Below are positions 28,442 to 40,863 of a stretch of 64,000 nucleotides of DNA, one piece after another (positions within the stretch are counted from its first letter, which is position 1; the number at the start of each line of letters is the position of its first letter). A program made the translations under genes and the position numbers. Below the pieces are notes generated by a model, which saw nothing but the letters and a program-made list of their open reading frames with translations, had not been told where the DNA came from and ran no database searches. Origin of the DNA: Myxococcales bacterium (lineage in GTDB: Bacteria > Myxococcota_A > UBA9160 > UBA4427); assembly GCA_012959805.1 (NCBI GenBank), contig DUCN01000080.1, positions 1 to 64,000 on the forward strand, written 5' to 3'.

Positions 28442-29455
28442 TCAAAGTCTGTAGATGCGCGTTGCCGTTCCCGAGAAGAGGGCGTCCTTTTCGTCTTCTG
28501 AAAGGTCCTGAACGATCTTCTTCATTCCGTTCCAGAGGACGGGATAGGAGATCGACATCTTGTCGACGGGGAAATTGCTTTCGAACATGCATCGGTCTGG
28601 TCCGAAGCAATCGATCGTATGAAGATAGTAGCGGCGCTGCGCCGTGACGAACTCATCCGAGGTCGGTGGTGTCTCGCGGCCCATCCAGCCGAATCCATTG
28701 TCGGGCATCGCCAGGCCTCCGAGTTTGGCCACGACGTTTTCGCATCGCGCGAGCTCCGCAATGTCTTTCTTCCACTGCGCATGAACTTCTTCTCGCTTGT
28801 CGGCCCAGGGCCCGACACCCAGCGGCGTCCCAAAGTGATCGAGAACGAATTGCGTGTCTGGGACTGCCCGGGCCAGGCCGATGAAGTCCTGGATCTGATA
28901 GTGGTAGTGCCATGTGTCGTAGGTATGTCCGAGCCGGCCGAGTCGCTTGATGCCATCACGAAATTCTTTTCGGGAGTAGAGGTCGGGTCTTGCACGGCCC
29001 GTCAGCATCAGACCGTCTTCCTTCTTCGCGCTCGCACCGGCATGGCGAACTCCGCGAAAGAGGCCTTGGCTCTTGTCTTCGTGGAGGTGGACGAGTTCCT
29101 CGATCGCGTCGCCTAGCATCAGGTCGATATGCGATACGAGGGCGACAATTTGAGAGCTAGCTTCGGGACTCGAAGCGGATTTTTCTGCTTCGCCTGCGAT
29201 GAACTCGACTTCGCCGAGGGAGCGAAGATGGTCTGGTCCCTCGGATCTGTATTCGGCGCCGCACTCCATGAAGATGGTCTGCTCGACGCGATGCCCGCTT
29301 CCGGTGTCGGCCCAGAGATCATCGAGGCAATAGGGCAGTGCGCCATCCACTCCCCAGAGATGATGATGGGTGTCGATGATGCGACGTTCGGGATCGACGA
29401 TTTCTTCCTGGACGAGGTCCAGCCATTGGGGCTGGATGGATTTCGATTCGCTCAT
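28442..29455 (-). CDS. Amidohydrolase 2 family (ACMSD-like TIM-barrel hydrolase)
   Basis: 337-residue metal-dependent hydrolase or decarboxylase of the Amidohydro_2 family. First metal motif IIDTHHHLWG (HxH), barrel His in FRGVRHAG, FVLDHFG, and final Asp region DRCMFESNFPVDK, which is the family's C-terminal signature. Cytoplasmic. ATG at 29455 has GGAG 9 nt upstream. Family members hydrolyse lactones (as in L-fucono-1,5-lactonase and gluconolactonase-like enzymes) or decarboxylate aromatic acids; specificity is open. A carboxymuconolactone decarboxylase relic lies directly upstream on the same strand. Confidence 0.9.
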   Translation of the reverse strand: MSESKSIQPQWLDLVQEEIVDPERRIIDTHHHLWGVDGALPYCLDDLWADTGSGHRVEQTIFMECGAEYRSEGPDHLRSLGEVEFIAGEAEKSASSPEASSQIVALVSHIDLMLGDAIEELVHLHEDKSQGLFRGVRHAGASAKKEDGLMLTGRARPDLYSRKEFRDGIKRLGRLGHTYDTWHYHYQIQDFIGLARAVPDTQFVLDHFGTPLGVGPWADKREEVHAQWKKDIAELARCENVVAKLGGLAMPDNGFGWMGRETPPTSDEFVTAQRRYYLHTIDCFGPDRCMFESNFPVDKMSISYPVLWNGMKKIVQDLSEDEKDALFSGTATRIYRL

Positions 29456-29513
29456 GGGGTCAATCTCCGGGTTGAATTCACGGGCTCAATGAGATCGTGG
29501 GATCAAGACGATC

Positions 29514-29717
29514 TCACGATTCGTTCGCGGCCGCATCTCGCTCGTCGAACACCGCTCTCGCGATCGCCATGCCTTCGACTGCCACGGGAAAGCCACCGTA
29601 GATCGCCATGTGCATGATCAGCTCCGAGATCTCGGTTCGGTCGAGACCGTTGTCGAGGCCGCGTCGGATATGAATCTAGCGTTCGGCGAACTTCAGATTT
29701 TCTTCTGGGGTGGCCAT
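29514..29717 (-). pseudogene. Carboxymuconolactone decarboxylase family remnant with in-frame amber codon
   Basis: Minus-strand reading from ATG 29717 gives MATPEENLKFAER, then TAG (29676-29678), then IHIRRGLDNGLDRTEISE and LIMHMAIYGGFPVAVEG to a stop at 29514. The second part is the C-terminal half of a CMD/AhpD-like domain. The N-terminal half with the CxxC-bearing helices is absent, and an amber replaces what is probably Gln (CAG to TAG). Only 67 codons remain of a usual 120-130. Adjacent to the amidohydrolase and the selenoprotein gene. The remaining 116 bp to 29833 look non-coding and probably carry the selenoprotein promoter. Confidence 0.6.
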
Positions 29718-29833
29718 CGTCAGTCTCCTTTGCCCGAGTTCGGGAGGGGCAATCTTTGATAAGATCCGAAGCGAATTCAGGAATGTCGATCCGGCGAGTT
29801 GCCGGGACCGAAAGCTTCATCAGGAGACAGAGC

Positions 29834-30754
29834 ATGGCGAATGAATCAGCGGGGCGCGACAGCTCGATCGAAGGCAGCGAAGGCGGCTCAGTCGACCCAT
29901 GGCGTTTCGCCGGCAGTTTTCTCAAAGGTATTCTCAGCAAGTCGATCCCCGATACGCCGAGTCATGCGGCCATTCCCTGGAGCCCGATGACCAAGCCTCT
30001 GGCGGAGGCCAAAGTGGCGCTTCTCTCGACTGCGGGAATTTCGATGAAGGGAGACAGGTCCTTCGACATGGAATGCGAACGACAGAATCCGACGTGGGGT
30101 GATTCGAGTTTCCGGCGACTCCGTGCGGATGCGACTTCGGACAACATCGAAGTGAATCATCTTCATATCGACACAGGCTATATCCAGCGCGATTTGAACG
30201 TTGCCCTTCCACTGGATCGGCTTCGCGGATTGGTGGCGGAGGGTCATGTCGGTTCGATGGCCGAGACGCACTATTCGATCATGGGATTTCAGGGGGCTGA
30301 TTCGAGCCGCCTCGAAAATGAAACGGCGCCGGCCATTGCAGAAAATGTGAAAAACGAGGAGGTCGATCTGGTTCTCCTCGCCCCGGTCTGACCGGATTGT
30401 TGCCGGTCCGTGGGACTGGTCGCCAGGAAGATCGAAGAAGCCGGAATTTCGACCGTCACGCTCAACATGATCTGGCCGTATCAGAGGCTCGTGGGCATGC
30501 CGCGTGTCGCGGCAATCGAGTATCCCTTCGGTCGCCCCTTTGGCGACGTGGGCGATGCGTCGACGCAGCGAGAGGTGTTAGTCGCCGCACTAGCTTTCGC
30601 AGAGGAGGCTGGTCAGCCGGGACAGATCAAGCATCTCCCCTTCCGATGGCACCAAGAGCCTAAAGACACCAAATGGCACCCGTCAGCGCCGTCTCCGATC
30701 ATCGCCATGATGCAGGCTCGCAGGGCAAAGCGGGAAGCCAAATTCGAAGGCTGA
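29834..30754 (+). CDS. GrdB/PrdB-family reductase selenoprotein (in-frame UGA = Sec186)
   Basis: Member of the glycine/sarcosine/betaine/D-proline reductase selenoprotein B family (PF07355-like), whose proteins reduce C-N bonds or related substrates with a Sec/Cys. ATG 29834 has AGGAG 7 nt upstream. Codons 1-185 give KVALLSTAGISMKGD, LHIDTGYIQRDLNVALPLDRL, SMAETHYSIMGF and VDLVLLAPV. A UGA at 30389-30391 follows, and the same frame continues PDCCRSVGLVARKIEEAG to a stop at 30754. Family members have V-C/U-P-x-C-x-x-x-V-G-L-V-A-R at this point, so UGA sits exactly at the redox residue. A SECIS-like hairpin follows. Read through, the protein has 306 residues, a full-length family member. Metabolic role unknown. 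Confidence 0.82.
30403..30419 (+). promoter_or_regulatory. Bacterial SECIS-like hairpin after the UGA codon
   Basis: CCGGTCC and GGACTGG form a 7-bp stem (one G-U pair, extendable by another G-U) around the loop GTG. The loop begins 19 nt after the UGA at 30389-30391 and has G first. These features match the general bacterial SECIS rule: a stem-loop 16-37 nt downstream of UGA with a G in the first two loop positions, recognised by SelB. Seen by hand pairing only. Confidence 0.6.
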
Positions 30755-30880
30755 GCGAGTCTCGGGGTCGCGTAAATTTTGCAAAATTCCCGCGGGCTCT
30801 CTAAAGAGATTCCCTGATTCGGCCGATCTCTTTTAAGCACCGTTGCGTCCATATCCCGCAGCGACTGAGGGAGGTCCGCC

Positions 30881-32746
30881 ATGCCGATCCGCACACGGCT
30901 CAGTGTCTCAAATTGTTCTTCTTCGATCTCTCGCGTGATCTTCCTCGCGCTGATCCTTGCGCTTTCGGGCTGCGTTGGAGGTGCCTGGAAAACCACGCTC
31001 GAAGAAGACACGCCGGCCGCCTACTACCGATTCATGCGCGAGCACGGCGATTCGAAATACGCGGTCCAGGCCCGCGAGCGATTGGATTTTCACAAGCTGA
31101 AGAGGAACCCGAGCCTGTCCGGCTTCGATGCCTTCCGGAATGAATTCCCGGGCAGCGATCTCATCGTCCAGCTTCACCCGGCACTCGAAAAGCCGGCTTT
31201 TGAAATGGCTCGGGCACAGGGGACATCCGCTGCCTACCGAGAATTTCTTGCCGGCTTCACGGGGGGCGCATTCTCGAACCGTGCGGAGGGCAATGCCGTC
31301 TATGTTGAGTCGAGCGGGTTCGGCGGTGACGCAGCATTGCTTGCGTCTTTTTCCGAGCGCTATGCGGAAAGTGATTTTGCAGCGGAGGCTGTGCGCACGG
31401 TGAAGGCGGTGGCCGAGAAACGCGCCGGCCAATTCGATCAGATTGGTCTGGTTCTCAAAATCGCGAGGGGAACGCCCGAGGCGAATCGCGTACGAAAGGC
31501 ATTGGTCGACCGCATCCAGGAAATGATGGAACGCGTTGGGATTTCGCTCGTCGAGATTCCAGATGTCATTCCGGCAGGCCAGGCTTCGCGCTATCCGGCG
31601 GCACGGCTTGAAGTGTCCCACGTGGAGCGCGAAGTCGGGCGCCACGTCAGCGCGGGCGAACTCGCACGTCCGGCGCTGCTGGGCGAAACGGCGATCGTAT
31701 TACGGGACAAGCCAGACGGAGTCGTCATCGCATCGCGCACCTTCAACATTCGGGTCGAGGACAAGGCGCATGTGCCTGGGACATCCGTTCTCTTCTCGGC
31801 GGTGTCACCTAAATTTTGGGATGAGTTCTTCGTTCCGGTTGCACGTTGGCGCAATAACCGATCGATTCGCCCGGCGCTTCCGCTGGGGCGGGCGATCATT
31901 GACCTCGACGGTGTAGGCGATCGAGTCGTCGTGCTCTTCGAGGACGGCGACTTCGAGCTGCTCGGGCTCGCGGATCCGCTGAAGCCGATTCGGCTCGCGG
32001 CCTACCATCGTGGAGAGGACTATAAAAAGTGGACTGGGATTCGCATTCTCGGGGATCGTGTGGCGATCTATGGCGAAGAAGGCCTCGAGATCGTTCGCTT
32101 CACCGGTACCGGACCCATCGCAGAGAAGACCTGGACGCGCGGACAGATTGGCCGCGTTCTTTCGCTGACTTCCCTGGGCGATGAACTCGTCATCGTTGGC
32201 GCCAAGGGCATGCAGATACTGGATCTAGAGACGAATACGATCCGGCGCGTTATGCGTCGAGTTCTGAAGAGCGTTGCATCGGCGGGCGACACACTCGTCT
32301 TCGTCGATGGTGAGTCGATCTATCTCTCGACCCTAGACCTACTCGCTGAGAATCGCGTGGTTGCCCAGATGAAGCTGGGCAAGACCTTTGGCCCGAACAA
32401 CGTGCGCGTACTCGAAGGTGCTGCGATCGTGACGGGACCGGGTGGCGCCATCGTCATCGATGTTCGAAATCCCGCCAAGCCCAAGGCGTTGGCCAAGCAC
32501 CTAACACGGGATGTCGGGGATATCGTCGACGCAACACGCGTTCGTGGTCGAGTCTTCTTGGTGGGCACGCGCGGTCTTCAAGTTTTGAATCGATCGCTCA
32601 CACGAGTGGAAGAGACAATTGATGTTGGTGAGCGAAACCGCGTGACGGTGATGGGGCGACATCTTGTCACATCCGATGATTCGGGCCTTCAGGTTGTGGA
32701 TGCGACGCCATGGGCCGACGCGGGCGTCCCGGCAGCCGCGCGTTAG
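30881..32746 (+). CDS. Lipoprotein with C-terminal LVIVD-like beta-propeller repeats
   Basis: 621 residues. Signal peptide with lipobox LALSGC (Cys about 31), so anchored in the outer or inner membrane. The N-terminal 170 residues are helical repeats of about 35 residues (AAYYRFMREHGDSKYAVQAR-type), TPR-like. From about residue 335 short repeated blades appear (VVVLFEDGDFELLGLADPLKPI, VIVGAKGMQILDLETN, AIVIDVRNPAKPKAL, FLVGTRGLQVLN), like LVIVD-repeat propellers. ATG 30881 has GGGAGG about 7 nt upstream. No enzymatic motif; probably a protein-interaction or surface scaffold. Single gene. Confidence 0.8.
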   Translation: MPIRTRLSVSNCSSSISRVIFLALILALSGCVGGAWKTTLEEDTPAAYYRFMREHGDSKYAVQARERLDFHKLKRNPSLSGFDAFRNEFPGSDLIVQLHPALEKPAFEMARAQGTSAAYREFLAGFTGGAFSNRAEGNAVYVESSGFGGDAALLASFSERYAESDFAAEAVRTVKAVAEKRAGQFDQIGLVLKIARGTPEANRVRKALVDRIQEMMERVGISLVEIPDVIPAGQASRYPAARLEVSHVEREVGRHVSAGELARPALLGETAIVLRDKPDGVVIASRTFNIRVEDKAHVPGTSVLFSAVSPKFWDEFFVPVARWRNNRSIRPALPLGRAIIDLDGVGDRVVVLFEDGDFELLGLADPLKPIRLAAYHRGEDYKKWTGIRILGDRVAIYGEEGLEIVRFTGTGPIAEKTWTRGQIGRVLSLTSLGDELVIVGAKGMQILDLETNTIRRVMRRVLKSVASAGDTLVFVDGESIYLSTLDLLAENRVVAQMKLGKTFGPNNVRVLEGAAIVTGPGGAIVIDVRNPAKPKALAKHLTRDVGDIVDATRVRGRVFLVGTRGLQVLNRSLTRVEETIDVGERNRVTVMGRHLVTSDDSGLQVVDATPWADAGVPAAAR

Positions 32747-38614: not shown

Positions 38615-40774
38615 CTACCTCGCTTCAGTCATAGCGAGCAGCGAGAAGGCTTCGCGCAGGCGCTCCCGATCCGCCGACTCACCCTCGAGGCGCGTGGCCG
38701 CAGAATCGATCGTACCGTGTCTTTGTGCATCGATTCGTTCGTCGATCTTGAATTGGAAGCCTGAATCGTTGGCTTCGTCGTGACAGTCGCCGCAGACCTT
38801 GAGGATCACGCAGGAATCGCATTTGTCGCCGAGGGAGAGGATGGTTCCAACGCGCTTGGCCGTTTCTCCGATGTGGTCGCCACCCGGGCCGTGACATGAC
38901 TCGCATCCGACTCGGGCGAGGTCAGCGTGATCCGCGACCTTCGCCGTTGCCGGGAATCCGCCGGGCTTTCCAAAGGCCGTCGTGTGGCAGGTCAGGCATT
39001 CGGTTTCATTGGATTTTCCGGACCGTTCAAGGGTCCGGACGGAATGTCCGTGAGGGCTCGTCTCCCAGGTCGCGAACTCGGCTTGATGACAGCCCTGGCA
39101 GGCATTGGATCCCACGTAGTCCGCGGAGGTCGGAAGTAGATTTCGGATGGGTCCGGATCCTCCTAACAGGTCCGCGCGTTCGGTATCCGAGAGCGAGACG
39201 ATCTTGCGATGTGAGACGCGTGGCTGGAACTCGGCGTAGTCGAACCCGAGCGAATGTTTGGGGTTGTGACAGGTCGAGCAAACATGCTGGTAATCATGCT
39301 GCCCCGCCGCGTCGCGCGGGACGAAATTCGGTGTGAGGTGTGGACCGCCGCGACCGTGGCAGGACTCGCACCCAACATTTTCAAGGTGGGCTGGCTGGCG
39401 TCGAAAATCAAAACCGCCAGTTTCTTCAAAACCAACCACATGGCAGCCGACACAGTCGGTCCGGCGGTCGGCGGCATGCGCCACCAGGGTACTGAATGCG
39501 GTCGAATGCGCGGTGAACTGCCATGCGGCGTGTTCTTGTTCGTGGCAGACGCCGCAGACATCATTGCCGCTATAGCCCTTGGGTTCGAGCAGCATGGGAA
39601 CTCGGGCTCCGGCCGCCTTTGCGACTTTCATGCGCACTAGACCGGGATCGCGTCGATCATTCCACCCCGAGCTGCGGTGGCGAATCTGGCCTTCCTGGTC
39701 GAGGACCAGGACGACGGGCACGCCTCCGGTCACGCCCCAGCGCTCCGTCGCCTTTCCACCGGGATCGAGGTACGGGTCGAAATAATCCAGATCGAGATCT
39801 TTCAACGATTTTCGAACCGCCGAGGGCGCGTTCTGAATCGAGATCGCGACGAGCCGAGGTCGAAGCTCCGCGTCGAAGGATTCGAGGGTTGCTTTGATGG
39901 ATGCGAGTGCACGATGGCAATGCGGGCAGGTGTGCAGGAAGAAGATGACGATGGCCGCTCGCCCCTCGAGATCTTTCGTCTCGAGAACGTCGCCATTGGA
40001 CATCGACACGACGCCGAGAGCCGGCGCATGGGAGAACGCGTAGAGACTTCCCGGCGACCCCTGCGGTGGGATTGTTAGGCGAAGATTTTCTCGAAGCATT
40101 TCTTCGATGCTTCCGACGATGTCTCCGTCGAGCGGGAAATTGCGTAGCCCGAAGTCCATATAACCGTCGGCGGCCACACCGATCAGAGTACTCGGCGATC
40201 GAATTCGCAGCTTGCGAGAGATCGAGCCGCCGCTGTCGTCGAGAATTGGGAACTCCAGACCTTCCGCGGCGGCGAATTCGGCGAGGATGTTTGAGTTGGT
40301 CCCGACTCCGATTCCCACAACCTTGAAATTATGCGTCGAGGCTTCTTGCTCAATCGTTGCAACAGCGCGGCTGAGTTCTCGTGCGGGCTCGACTTCGGGG
40401 TTGAAAAAGAAGAGCAGAACCCGCTGGCCGATGAGATCGCGCATGGCTAGTCGGCTCCCGTCGAGGGTCGTTCCTTCAAAGGCGGGAATCGGTCGCTCAT
40501 TCGGATTCCGCGGCGCCTTTTCGCCTTCGGCATGGATATGGGGCGTGCTGGCCTCGCCTGAATTCGAAGAAGGCGCGCTCTTGGATTGTTCGCTGGAAGA
40601 ACTCGCGCCGAGTTCTTCGGCGGACGTCTGCGTGTTGGTGCCGCCGAGGGCGTCATCGTCGGCGCACCCTATGGTGAGAAAGGCGCAACACAGGACGGAT
40701 GAAAGTGCGAATGTGAGCGGGCGAAGGACGGGACGAATCCGGGAGAGGCCGCGAAAGCAGAAAGGCATCGACAT
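38615..40774 (-). CDS. Lipoprotein with two thioredoxin folds and an octaheme cytochrome c554-like domain
   Basis: About 719 residues (frame open to GTG 40795; ATG 40774 preferred). Lipobox LTIGC then an acidic/Ser linker. First redoxin fold (about 95-235) lacks a CxxC: its active site reads FNPEVEPAR. Second thioredoxin fold (about 250-395) has FFLHTCPHCHRAL, a CxxC like TlpA/ResA. The C-terminal 310 residues hold eight CxxCH heme sites (CGVCH, CVGCH, CESCH, CSTCH, CQGCH, CLTCH, CESCH, CGDCH) with extra CDSCV that is not a heme motif. Pattern like cytochrome c554/multiheme nitrite-type cytochromes. Periplasmic electron-transfer protein. First gene before udg4-aroE. Confidence 0.85.
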   Translation of the reverse strand: MSMPFCFRGLSRIRPVLRPLTFALSSVLCCAFLTIGCADDDALGGTNTQTSAEELGASSSSEQSKSAPSSNSGEASTPHIHAEGEKAPRNPNERPIPAFEGTTLDGSRLAMRDLIGQRVLLFFFNPEVEPARELSRAVATIEQEASTHNFKVVGIGVGTNSNILAEFAAAEGLEFPILDDSGGSISRKLRIRSPSTLIGVAADGYMDFGLRNFPLDGDIVGSIEEMLRENLRLTIPPQGSPGSLYAFSHAPALGVVSMSNGDVLETKDLEGRAAIVIFFLHTCPHCHRALASIKATLESFDAELRPRLVAISIQNAPSAVRKSLKDLDLDYFDPYLDPGGKATERWGVTGGVPVVLVLDQEGQIRHRSSGWNDRRDPGLVRMKVAKAAGARVPMLLEPKGYSGNDVCGVCHEQEHAAWQFTAHSTAFSTLVAHAADRRTDCVGCHVVGFEETGGFDFRRQPAHLENVGCESCHGRGGPHLTPNFVPRDAAGQHDYQHVCSTCHNPKHSLGFDYAEFQPRVSHRKIVSLSDTERADLLGGSGPIRNLLPTSADYVGSNACQGCHQAEFATWETSPHGHSVRTLERSGKSNETECLTCHTTAFGKPGGFPATAKVADHADLARVGCESCHGPGGDHIGETAKRVGTILSLGDKCDSCVILKVCGDCHDEANDSGFQFKIDERIDAQRHGTIDSAATRLEGESADRERLREAFSLLAMTEAR

Positions 40775-40863
40775 GGATGTCAGAATAGCAGGCACTCATT
40801 CGGTTGCGTGCGGTCTCGTCCCTGATTTGGACAGGCGCGCGATGGGTCCGCGGGCATCCGCGT

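Follow-up and report, generated by a model that had tools for sequence, protein, structure and literature searches.

The stretch of Myxococcales DNA analysed here (64,000 nucleotides of contig DUCN01000080.1; the window) includes a gene predicted to encode a PrdB-like selenoprotein (Table 1). A single reading frame extends from its ATG to its terminal TGA with an internal TGA as the sole interruption, and the residues around the latter are LLAPV-U-PDCC-RSVGLVARKIEEAG. An earlier note on this DNA had described two halves of one protein lying in one frame and split only by UGA, and also a fitting ribosome-binding site; the frame agrees, and an AGGAGA is suitably placed before the ATG. A scan of positions 29400-31000 gave no match to a sigma-70-like promoter. 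Without read-through the product would be a 185-residue piece, and an open stretch of 120 codons follows the TGA. In a 22-row alignment (the window gene with all but one of the 22 homologous loci found in named genomes) there is conservation on both sides of the TGA, and many of the residues after Sec186 are invariant, including G221, P223, R224, A226, A227, E229, P231 and R234. Third codon positions take more than half of the post-TGA changes in nine of nine pairwise comparisons, the same as they do of the pre-TGA changes. Judged by these comparisons, the stretch past the TGA is coding and under conserved constraint.

Table 1. Features of the locus, in window coordinates
Feature	Position	Strand	Details	Basis
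Amidohydrolase (PF04909), divergent upstream neighbour	28442..29455	-		Pfam match
Putative ribosome-binding site AGGAGA	29822..29827	+	6 nt 5' of the ATG	Reading of the sequence
Predicted PrdB-like selenoprotein CDS	29834..30754	+	306 residues, Sec at residue 186; stop TGA 30752-30754	Frame, TIGR04483, alignment
In-frame UGA, candidate Sec codon	30389..30391	+	U186 of UPDCC, UxxC redox motif	Homologue column
Codons of Cys189 and Cys190	30398..30403	+		Cys189 column conserved among homologues
Bacterial SECIS hairpin (candidate)	30402..30420	+	8-bp stem 30402-30409/30413-30420, loop GUG 30410-30412	
Downstream neighbour, 621 aa	30881..32746	+	No Pfam match at E <= 0.001	

The UGA codon and the selenocysteine machinery

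Homologous matches re-read from fetched DNA number 141, including those from eight plasmid records, and all except L031 and L158, which stop short, span the site. At the Sec column 137 of these 139 have TGA and two have TGC, counts in which some genes figure twice (the window gene is also L032, for instance, and L033 is also L082). The flanking residues had earlier been claimed to match a column occupied by Cys or Sec, and they do; a sense codon other than Cys or Sec, which was to count against selenocysteine, is found in none of the 139. Both TGC relatives are annotated as single full-length proteins. The 22 loci from named genomes were found with six peptide patterns that exclude the Sec site, and all 21 that span it have TGA. 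A search of 282 genomes of the phylum gave matches in 54; exactly one TGA is present in 106 of the 108 matches involved, TAA and TAG are absent from every one, and the remaining two are partial and without a stop. The TGA is shared across assemblies that include records named Myxococcota, Binatota and Gammaproteobacteria, and the genome of the window itself carries three such genes, each with one TGA.

That genome (an assembly of 4.46 Mb in 136 contigs, 90% complete) has selA (521 bits), selB (281 bits) and a tRNA-Sec with anticodon tca (68 bits), all over their cut-offs. The search for sel genes that the earlier note had called for thus succeeds for these three but not for selD, for which nothing in this 90%-complete assembly is over cut-off (best 69.6 of 125 bits). 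A gap in the assembly would be the likeliest reason, since selD is over cut-off in 22 of 25 genomes (the window's own counted among the 25), including eight of eight genus-mates. Of the 21 genomes of named relatives, 20 have a tRNA-Sec above the cut-off, with best scores of 63-74 bits; the exception is genome G020, that of locus L029, where none reaches it. The selD genes have features of their own. Ten of the matches over cut-off (L159-L161 and others) have one internal TGA, and selD there therefore looks like a selenoprotein gene itself; in seven of the eight genus-mates the open frame that includes selD is 774-821 codons long and free of TGA (395 codons in the eighth, G197), which suggests a fused form.

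The hairpin downstream of the UGA

A stem of 7-8 bp with a GUG loop at bacterial SECIS distance had been proposed from the window alone, and it is upheld: the stem has 8 bp, 18 nt separate the UGA from the loop, the calculated energy is -11.3 kcal/mol, and the pairs covary among homologues. The published bSECIS model specifies a loop of 3-9 nt with G in its first two positions, an upper stem of 4-16 bp, a spacing of 16-37 nt and an MFE <= -7.5 (PMC13188914), and the values for the window hairpin lie within these limits. Of the 1854 TGA trinucleotides of the window (both strands, any frame), the one at 30389 alone is followed by a seven-pair stem with a GU loop in exactly this register, and 20 first-order random windows together have four such combinations, a mean of 0.2. 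Because the region is also coding, the hairpin was tested against synonymous recoding; 2.75% of recodings of the window's own peptide retain all seven core pairs and 1.25% yield an equally stable hairpin. Across 100 distinct 36-mers of the UP type described below, representing 37 distinct peptides, 678 of 700 core cells are paired, with 108-277 of 700 pairing in slid registers and a mean of 462 (maximum 495) in 2000 synonymous recodings; all seven pairs are present in 82 of the 100 versus a recoded mean of 4.7 and maximum of 12. Covariation in 84 distinct 33-mers is seen at pair 14-30 (CG 55, TA 18, GC 6), pair 17-27 (GC 70, CG 6, TA 5, AT 2) and pair 18-26 (TA 33, AT 31, GC 17), and RNAalifold recovers the same stem unprompted, at -9.8 versus -0.06 (minimum -1.9) for 200 column shuffles. 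These SECIS counts omit seven UGTC-type sequences (five PrdB and two GrdB), which show 3-6 of the seven pairs in that register. The 'QCQL' homologues L027-L029 have the TGA and only 4-5 of the seven pairs, and may use a shifted or bulged SECIS.

Folding of 30389-30440, also suggested in the earlier note, gave a divided answer: folded by itself, the fragment has another hairpin as its lowest-energy structure (z = -0.21), but the seven inner SECIS pairs have a probability of about 0.59 within it. That probability is about 0.94-0.98 once the UGA and from none to about ten of the following bases are omitted, a test made because a paused ribosome would cover them, and it is 0.002 in a naked 201-nt piece. 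An Rfam gathering search of the window gave no match.

That the TGA is an ordinary stop, a sequencing or assembly error or the sign of a pseudogene, with the hairpin there by chance, is scarcely credible and was rejected on the evidence of the site, of conservation and of covariation, for though a GTG-start ORF of 114 codons does begin just past the TGA and the small fraction of recodings with an equally stable hairpin could be cited in its favor, the same TGA is present in many assemblies, the matches from the phylum have no TAA or TAG, and there is coding constraint beyond it, family-wide covariation and full-length Cys versions. The in-frame UGA is almost certainly read as selenocysteine.

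Family placement and the search for a pyruvoyl partner

The TIGR04483 (PrdB) match of the window protein extends across the TGA (residues 47-273; E 2.4e-48) but scores 164.6 bits versus the PrdB cut-off of 300, with a true PrdB control (L038) at 423.7 bits. With TIGR01918 (GrdB/GrdF/GrdH) the score is 61.9 bits versus a cut-off of 65.45, profile positions 215-411 being matched. Within the GrdB/PrdB family of the earlier assignment the protein is closer to PrdB than to GrdB, but it does not reach the cut-off for PrdB itself. PF07355 (GRDB superfamily) gives 47.1 bits with a cut-off of 22; its match, residues 42-183, stops just before the Sec, so this model, though proposed earlier for confirming the Sec column, cannot test it, but TIGR04483 and the homologues do cover the column. 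The Sec is in a UxxC motif (U186-P-D-C189), of which Cys189 is likely the resolving cysteine, Cys being present at this column in 94% of 128 UP-family rows, in five of five PrdB rows and in both GrdB rows. The GrdB motif is UxxCxxC (PMC13188914); residue 192 of the window protein is Ser, so that motif is absent, and the length is 306 versus about 430. There are no solved relatives by sequence or profile at E <= 1.

A tree of 135 rows, made by a quick method with two GrdB as outgroup and omitting L157 (114 aa) and the duplicates L032, L082 and L010_2, sets five true PrdB (SH-aLRT 90) apart from the UP rows (93), which number 128 and include the two Cys rows; these supports are moderate since the method was quick and neither branch is starred. 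The motifs divide in the same way, with U-G-T-C in the five PrdB rows and U-P in the UP rows, and D120, P126, E201 and R224 are invariant in both sets. Sec is present in 126 of the 128 UP rows. The window gene groups in a clade whose U-P-x-C-C members come from records labelled Myxococcota, Binatota and Gammaproteobacteria. Over the columns retained for the tree, family proteins of same-family and same-order genomes are identical to those of records placed among the myxococcotes (L026 and G086, L012 and G100), which points to a myxococcote host. Matches are common near the window's own genome (the sample had 59 genomes of its class, and 47 have one) but scattered outside the class (7 of 223 genomes, with 208 unlisted genomes taken as outside it). 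As read from these genomes, the UP family (motif U-P-x-C) is large, partner-less and nearly always Sec-containing.

The two paralogues in the genome of the window fall in subfamilies other than that of the window gene. L033 (contig C110, 1378-2193, plus strand) has a TGA and matching hairpin with the motif UPLDHQ, and so is without the usual cysteine three residues past Sec; it sits between an acyl-CoA-dehydrogenase-like ORF and, on the opposite strand, a molybdopterin-oxidoreductase-like ORF, both named by eye. L034 (contig C42, 1363-2265, minus strand) likewise has TGA and hairpin, with UPVCHQ. The two Cys versions, Haematobacter WP_035710215.1 and Roseomonas WP_207415257.1, are encoded on alphaproteobacterial plasmids and named 'glycine/sarcosine/betaine reductase selenoprotein B family protein'; they are full-length relatives in which Cys (TGC) takes the place of Sec, and they group with the L034 subfamily and not with that of the window gene, so that a Sec/Cys exchange lies there. 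The richest genome, G164, has six UP genes and one GrdB-type gene, L143, with UGTCTRC and a TGA, at the start of its contig C42.

PrdA and GrdE belong to PF09338, and no match to this family was found in the window's own genome, in any of 21 genomes of named relatives (those of the named set of loci except L031) or in any of 53 genomes of the phylum with a match. The latter two sets make up 74 homologue-bearing handles, some of them the same genome reached in two ways. Nor is there a match in G164, of the same class, despite its GrdB-type gene, or on the two alphaproteobacterial plasmids with Cys relatives, for which the search covered the plasmids. The plasmid search took in five of the eight records L037-L044, the prdB-bearing L040 and L041 not being among them, and the three prdB-bearing records given as positive controls (L037, L038 and L039) all match. 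Since the pyruvoyl family is absent from all the homologue-bearing genomes searched, it is unlikely that the proteins of this genome and its relatives are the two-subunit proline reductase. That the protein nevertheless serves a genuine D-proline (or glycine-type) reductase as its Sec subunit, the partner being divergent or in an assembly gap, is improbable. PrdB is the best profile match, the four residues invariant in both UP and PrdB rows are shared, and a partner outside PF09338 is conceivable, but the score is far from that of a true PrdB, gaps in assemblies cannot account for the absence of PF09338 from the window's genome and also from all 74 further handles when the controls match, the motifs differ, and the seven window neighbours scanned include no prd-type genes. 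Identity as a true PrdB or GrdB was accordingly rejected on score, partner and motif.

The lack of prd-type neighbours and of any recurrent cluster bears out the earlier remark that there is no classical Stickland cluster here and that the substrate is open. Only in the close relatives L011, L014 and L026 does a neighbour family keep a fixed position, so beyond these no neighbour names the substrate or reductant, and the attempt to derive a substrate from gene neighbourhood was given up; one neighbour ORF family is present at 7 of the 22 loci, at varied distances. Next to L024/L025 and L030 there are ORFs that by eye resemble LLM-class oxidoreductases, but these are too few to serve as a substrate clue. 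Elsewhere in the window, 38615-40795 (minus strand) encodes a 726-aa protein with two AhpC-TSA/Redoxin stretches and cytochrome c554-type domains. A COX1-type oxidase is encoded in the genome, and an oxygen-using lifestyle is therefore likely; the host bacterium probably uses oxygen.

The main reading, to which a probability of roughly 0.85 is given, is that the UGA at 30389 would be decoded as Sec by way of the hairpin 11-29 nt downstream together with SelA, SelB and tRNA-Sec, in a UP-family member that adjoins true PrdB from outside and has no PF09338 pyruvoyl partner.

Possible function and comparison with known systems

For PrdB and GrdB it is proposed that the Sec selenolate attacks a Schiff-base substrate on a carbonyl group (pyruvoyl for PrdB), with subsequent cleavage of the selenoether by a thiol (PMC10298544). 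As no pyruvoyl (Schiff-base) partner was found for the window protein, no carbonyl activation of its substrate would be needed, and therefore D-proline or glycine is unlikely. The favoured interpretation is a selenol/thiol reductase that acts alone and has a substrate pocket of its own, because UP proteins keep Sec and Cys without a partner and FarB, considered below, is proposed to act without pyruvoyl. The selenolate of Sec186 would attack either a polarised C-X bond, as in PrdB/GrdB-like chemistry, or an S-, Se-, N- or O-linked oxidised group, Cys189 would free the product as it forms a selenenylsulfide with the Sec, and the enzyme would be reset by a dithiol system of the cell. The mechanism in this wording is tentative, its chances being put clearly below even, and the resolving step would not be universal since paralogue L033 is without the UxxC cysteine.

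The main rival, judged only a little less likely, is a thiol-type redox protein without C-X cleavage, in which Sec and Cys would act on disulfides, sulfoxides or peroxides and give stress protection in oxygen-exposed cells. The thioredoxin-like redox arrangement of UxxC, the terminal oxidase encoded in the genome and the lack of a recognised metabolic gene cluster beside the gene would all suit such a role, but by sequence the family is that of PrdB/GrdB and not thioredoxin, the strong conservation of many residues outside the redox site speaks for a small, specific substrate, and the L033 subfamily does without the UxxC Cys. The stand-alone reductase can be placed in a wider proposal, possible at a little under even odds, that UP proteins are a separate kind of selenoenzyme which would carry out PrdB/GrdB-type cleavage or another selenol-driven reduction alone, with no pyruvoyl partner, in oxygen-using bacteria, with several substrate-specific paralogues per genome and Sec kept almost always in this lineage, the abundant marine 'proline reductase' selenoproteins being largely this enzyme and no proline reductase. 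In the Global Ocean Sampling (GOS) data Cys members outnumber Sec members in most selenoprotein families (PMC2398784), and set against this norm the near-constant Sec of the UP rows in this lineage points to a reaction needing selenium chemistry. Across paralogues the covarying hairpins make up a clean collection of SECIS variants that occur naturally in the lineage.

Among known systems, PrdB (TIGR04483; Clostridia, Enterococcus, Ligilactobacillus) is similar to the window protein in its single-domain length, in UxxC, in having a UGA-encoded Sec at this column and in several shared invariant residues, and with Terrisporobacter PrdB there is 37% identity over 80% of the query. The two differ in motif (U-G-T-C-H in PrdB versus U-P-D-C-C), and the window protein has about half the needed score, a separate branch and no PF09338 partner. 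The five PrdB genes have 3-4 of the seven pairs in the SECIS register of the window gene, with a 7-bp stem in another register in L038 and L041. With GrdB/GrdF/GrdH (PF07355, TIGR01918) the homology is to the C-terminal half of GrdB, with Sec at the same column; the GrdB profiles have 431-435 positions and are matched only from about position 208 onwards, and unlike GrdB the window protein is without UxxCxxC and no GrdE partner was found for it. FarB of monofluoroacetate-reducing Synergistota is a GrdB-like selenoprotein for which selenolate attack on C-F has been proposed, and its partner FarE is unable to form the pyruvoyl group (PMC10838667). FarB, as described there, does have that partner and an operon, whereas no PF09338 protein was found for the window gene.

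UP-type genes are present in two single-cell genomes named uncultured proteobacterium, AG-453-E14 and AG-365-F14 (L024 and L025), which we take to be marine. Most of the PrdB genes of marine surveys are probably UP genes as well. Since 2005 surveys of sea water have listed 'proline reductase PrdB' as one of its abundant selenoproteins (PMC1088965, PMC2398784, PMC9402790), an odd setting for an anaerobic Stickland enzyme, and since such genes have been catalogued for so long the kind of selenoprotein is already known. The Sargasso Sea set had 42 Sec-containing 'proline reductase PrdB' genes and one Cys homologue (PMC1088965), and the GOS set 235 and 110 (PMC2398784), the latter number being a caution against over-reading the retention of Sec. 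Anaeromyxobacter dehalogenans is also listed with a PrdB selenoprotein (PMC1794560). Like the window gene, the marine-survey and Anaeromyxobacter/Geobacter 'PrdB' selenoproteins have Sec and UxxC; the marine ones were named proline reductase, and the available text of those surveys does not discuss the absent partner. A literature search in which subscription journals were little covered found no paper treating a partner-less PrdB-like selenoprotein. What stands out here is the partner-less UP family as distinct from proline reductase, and its real substrate thereby becomes a concrete, testable question.
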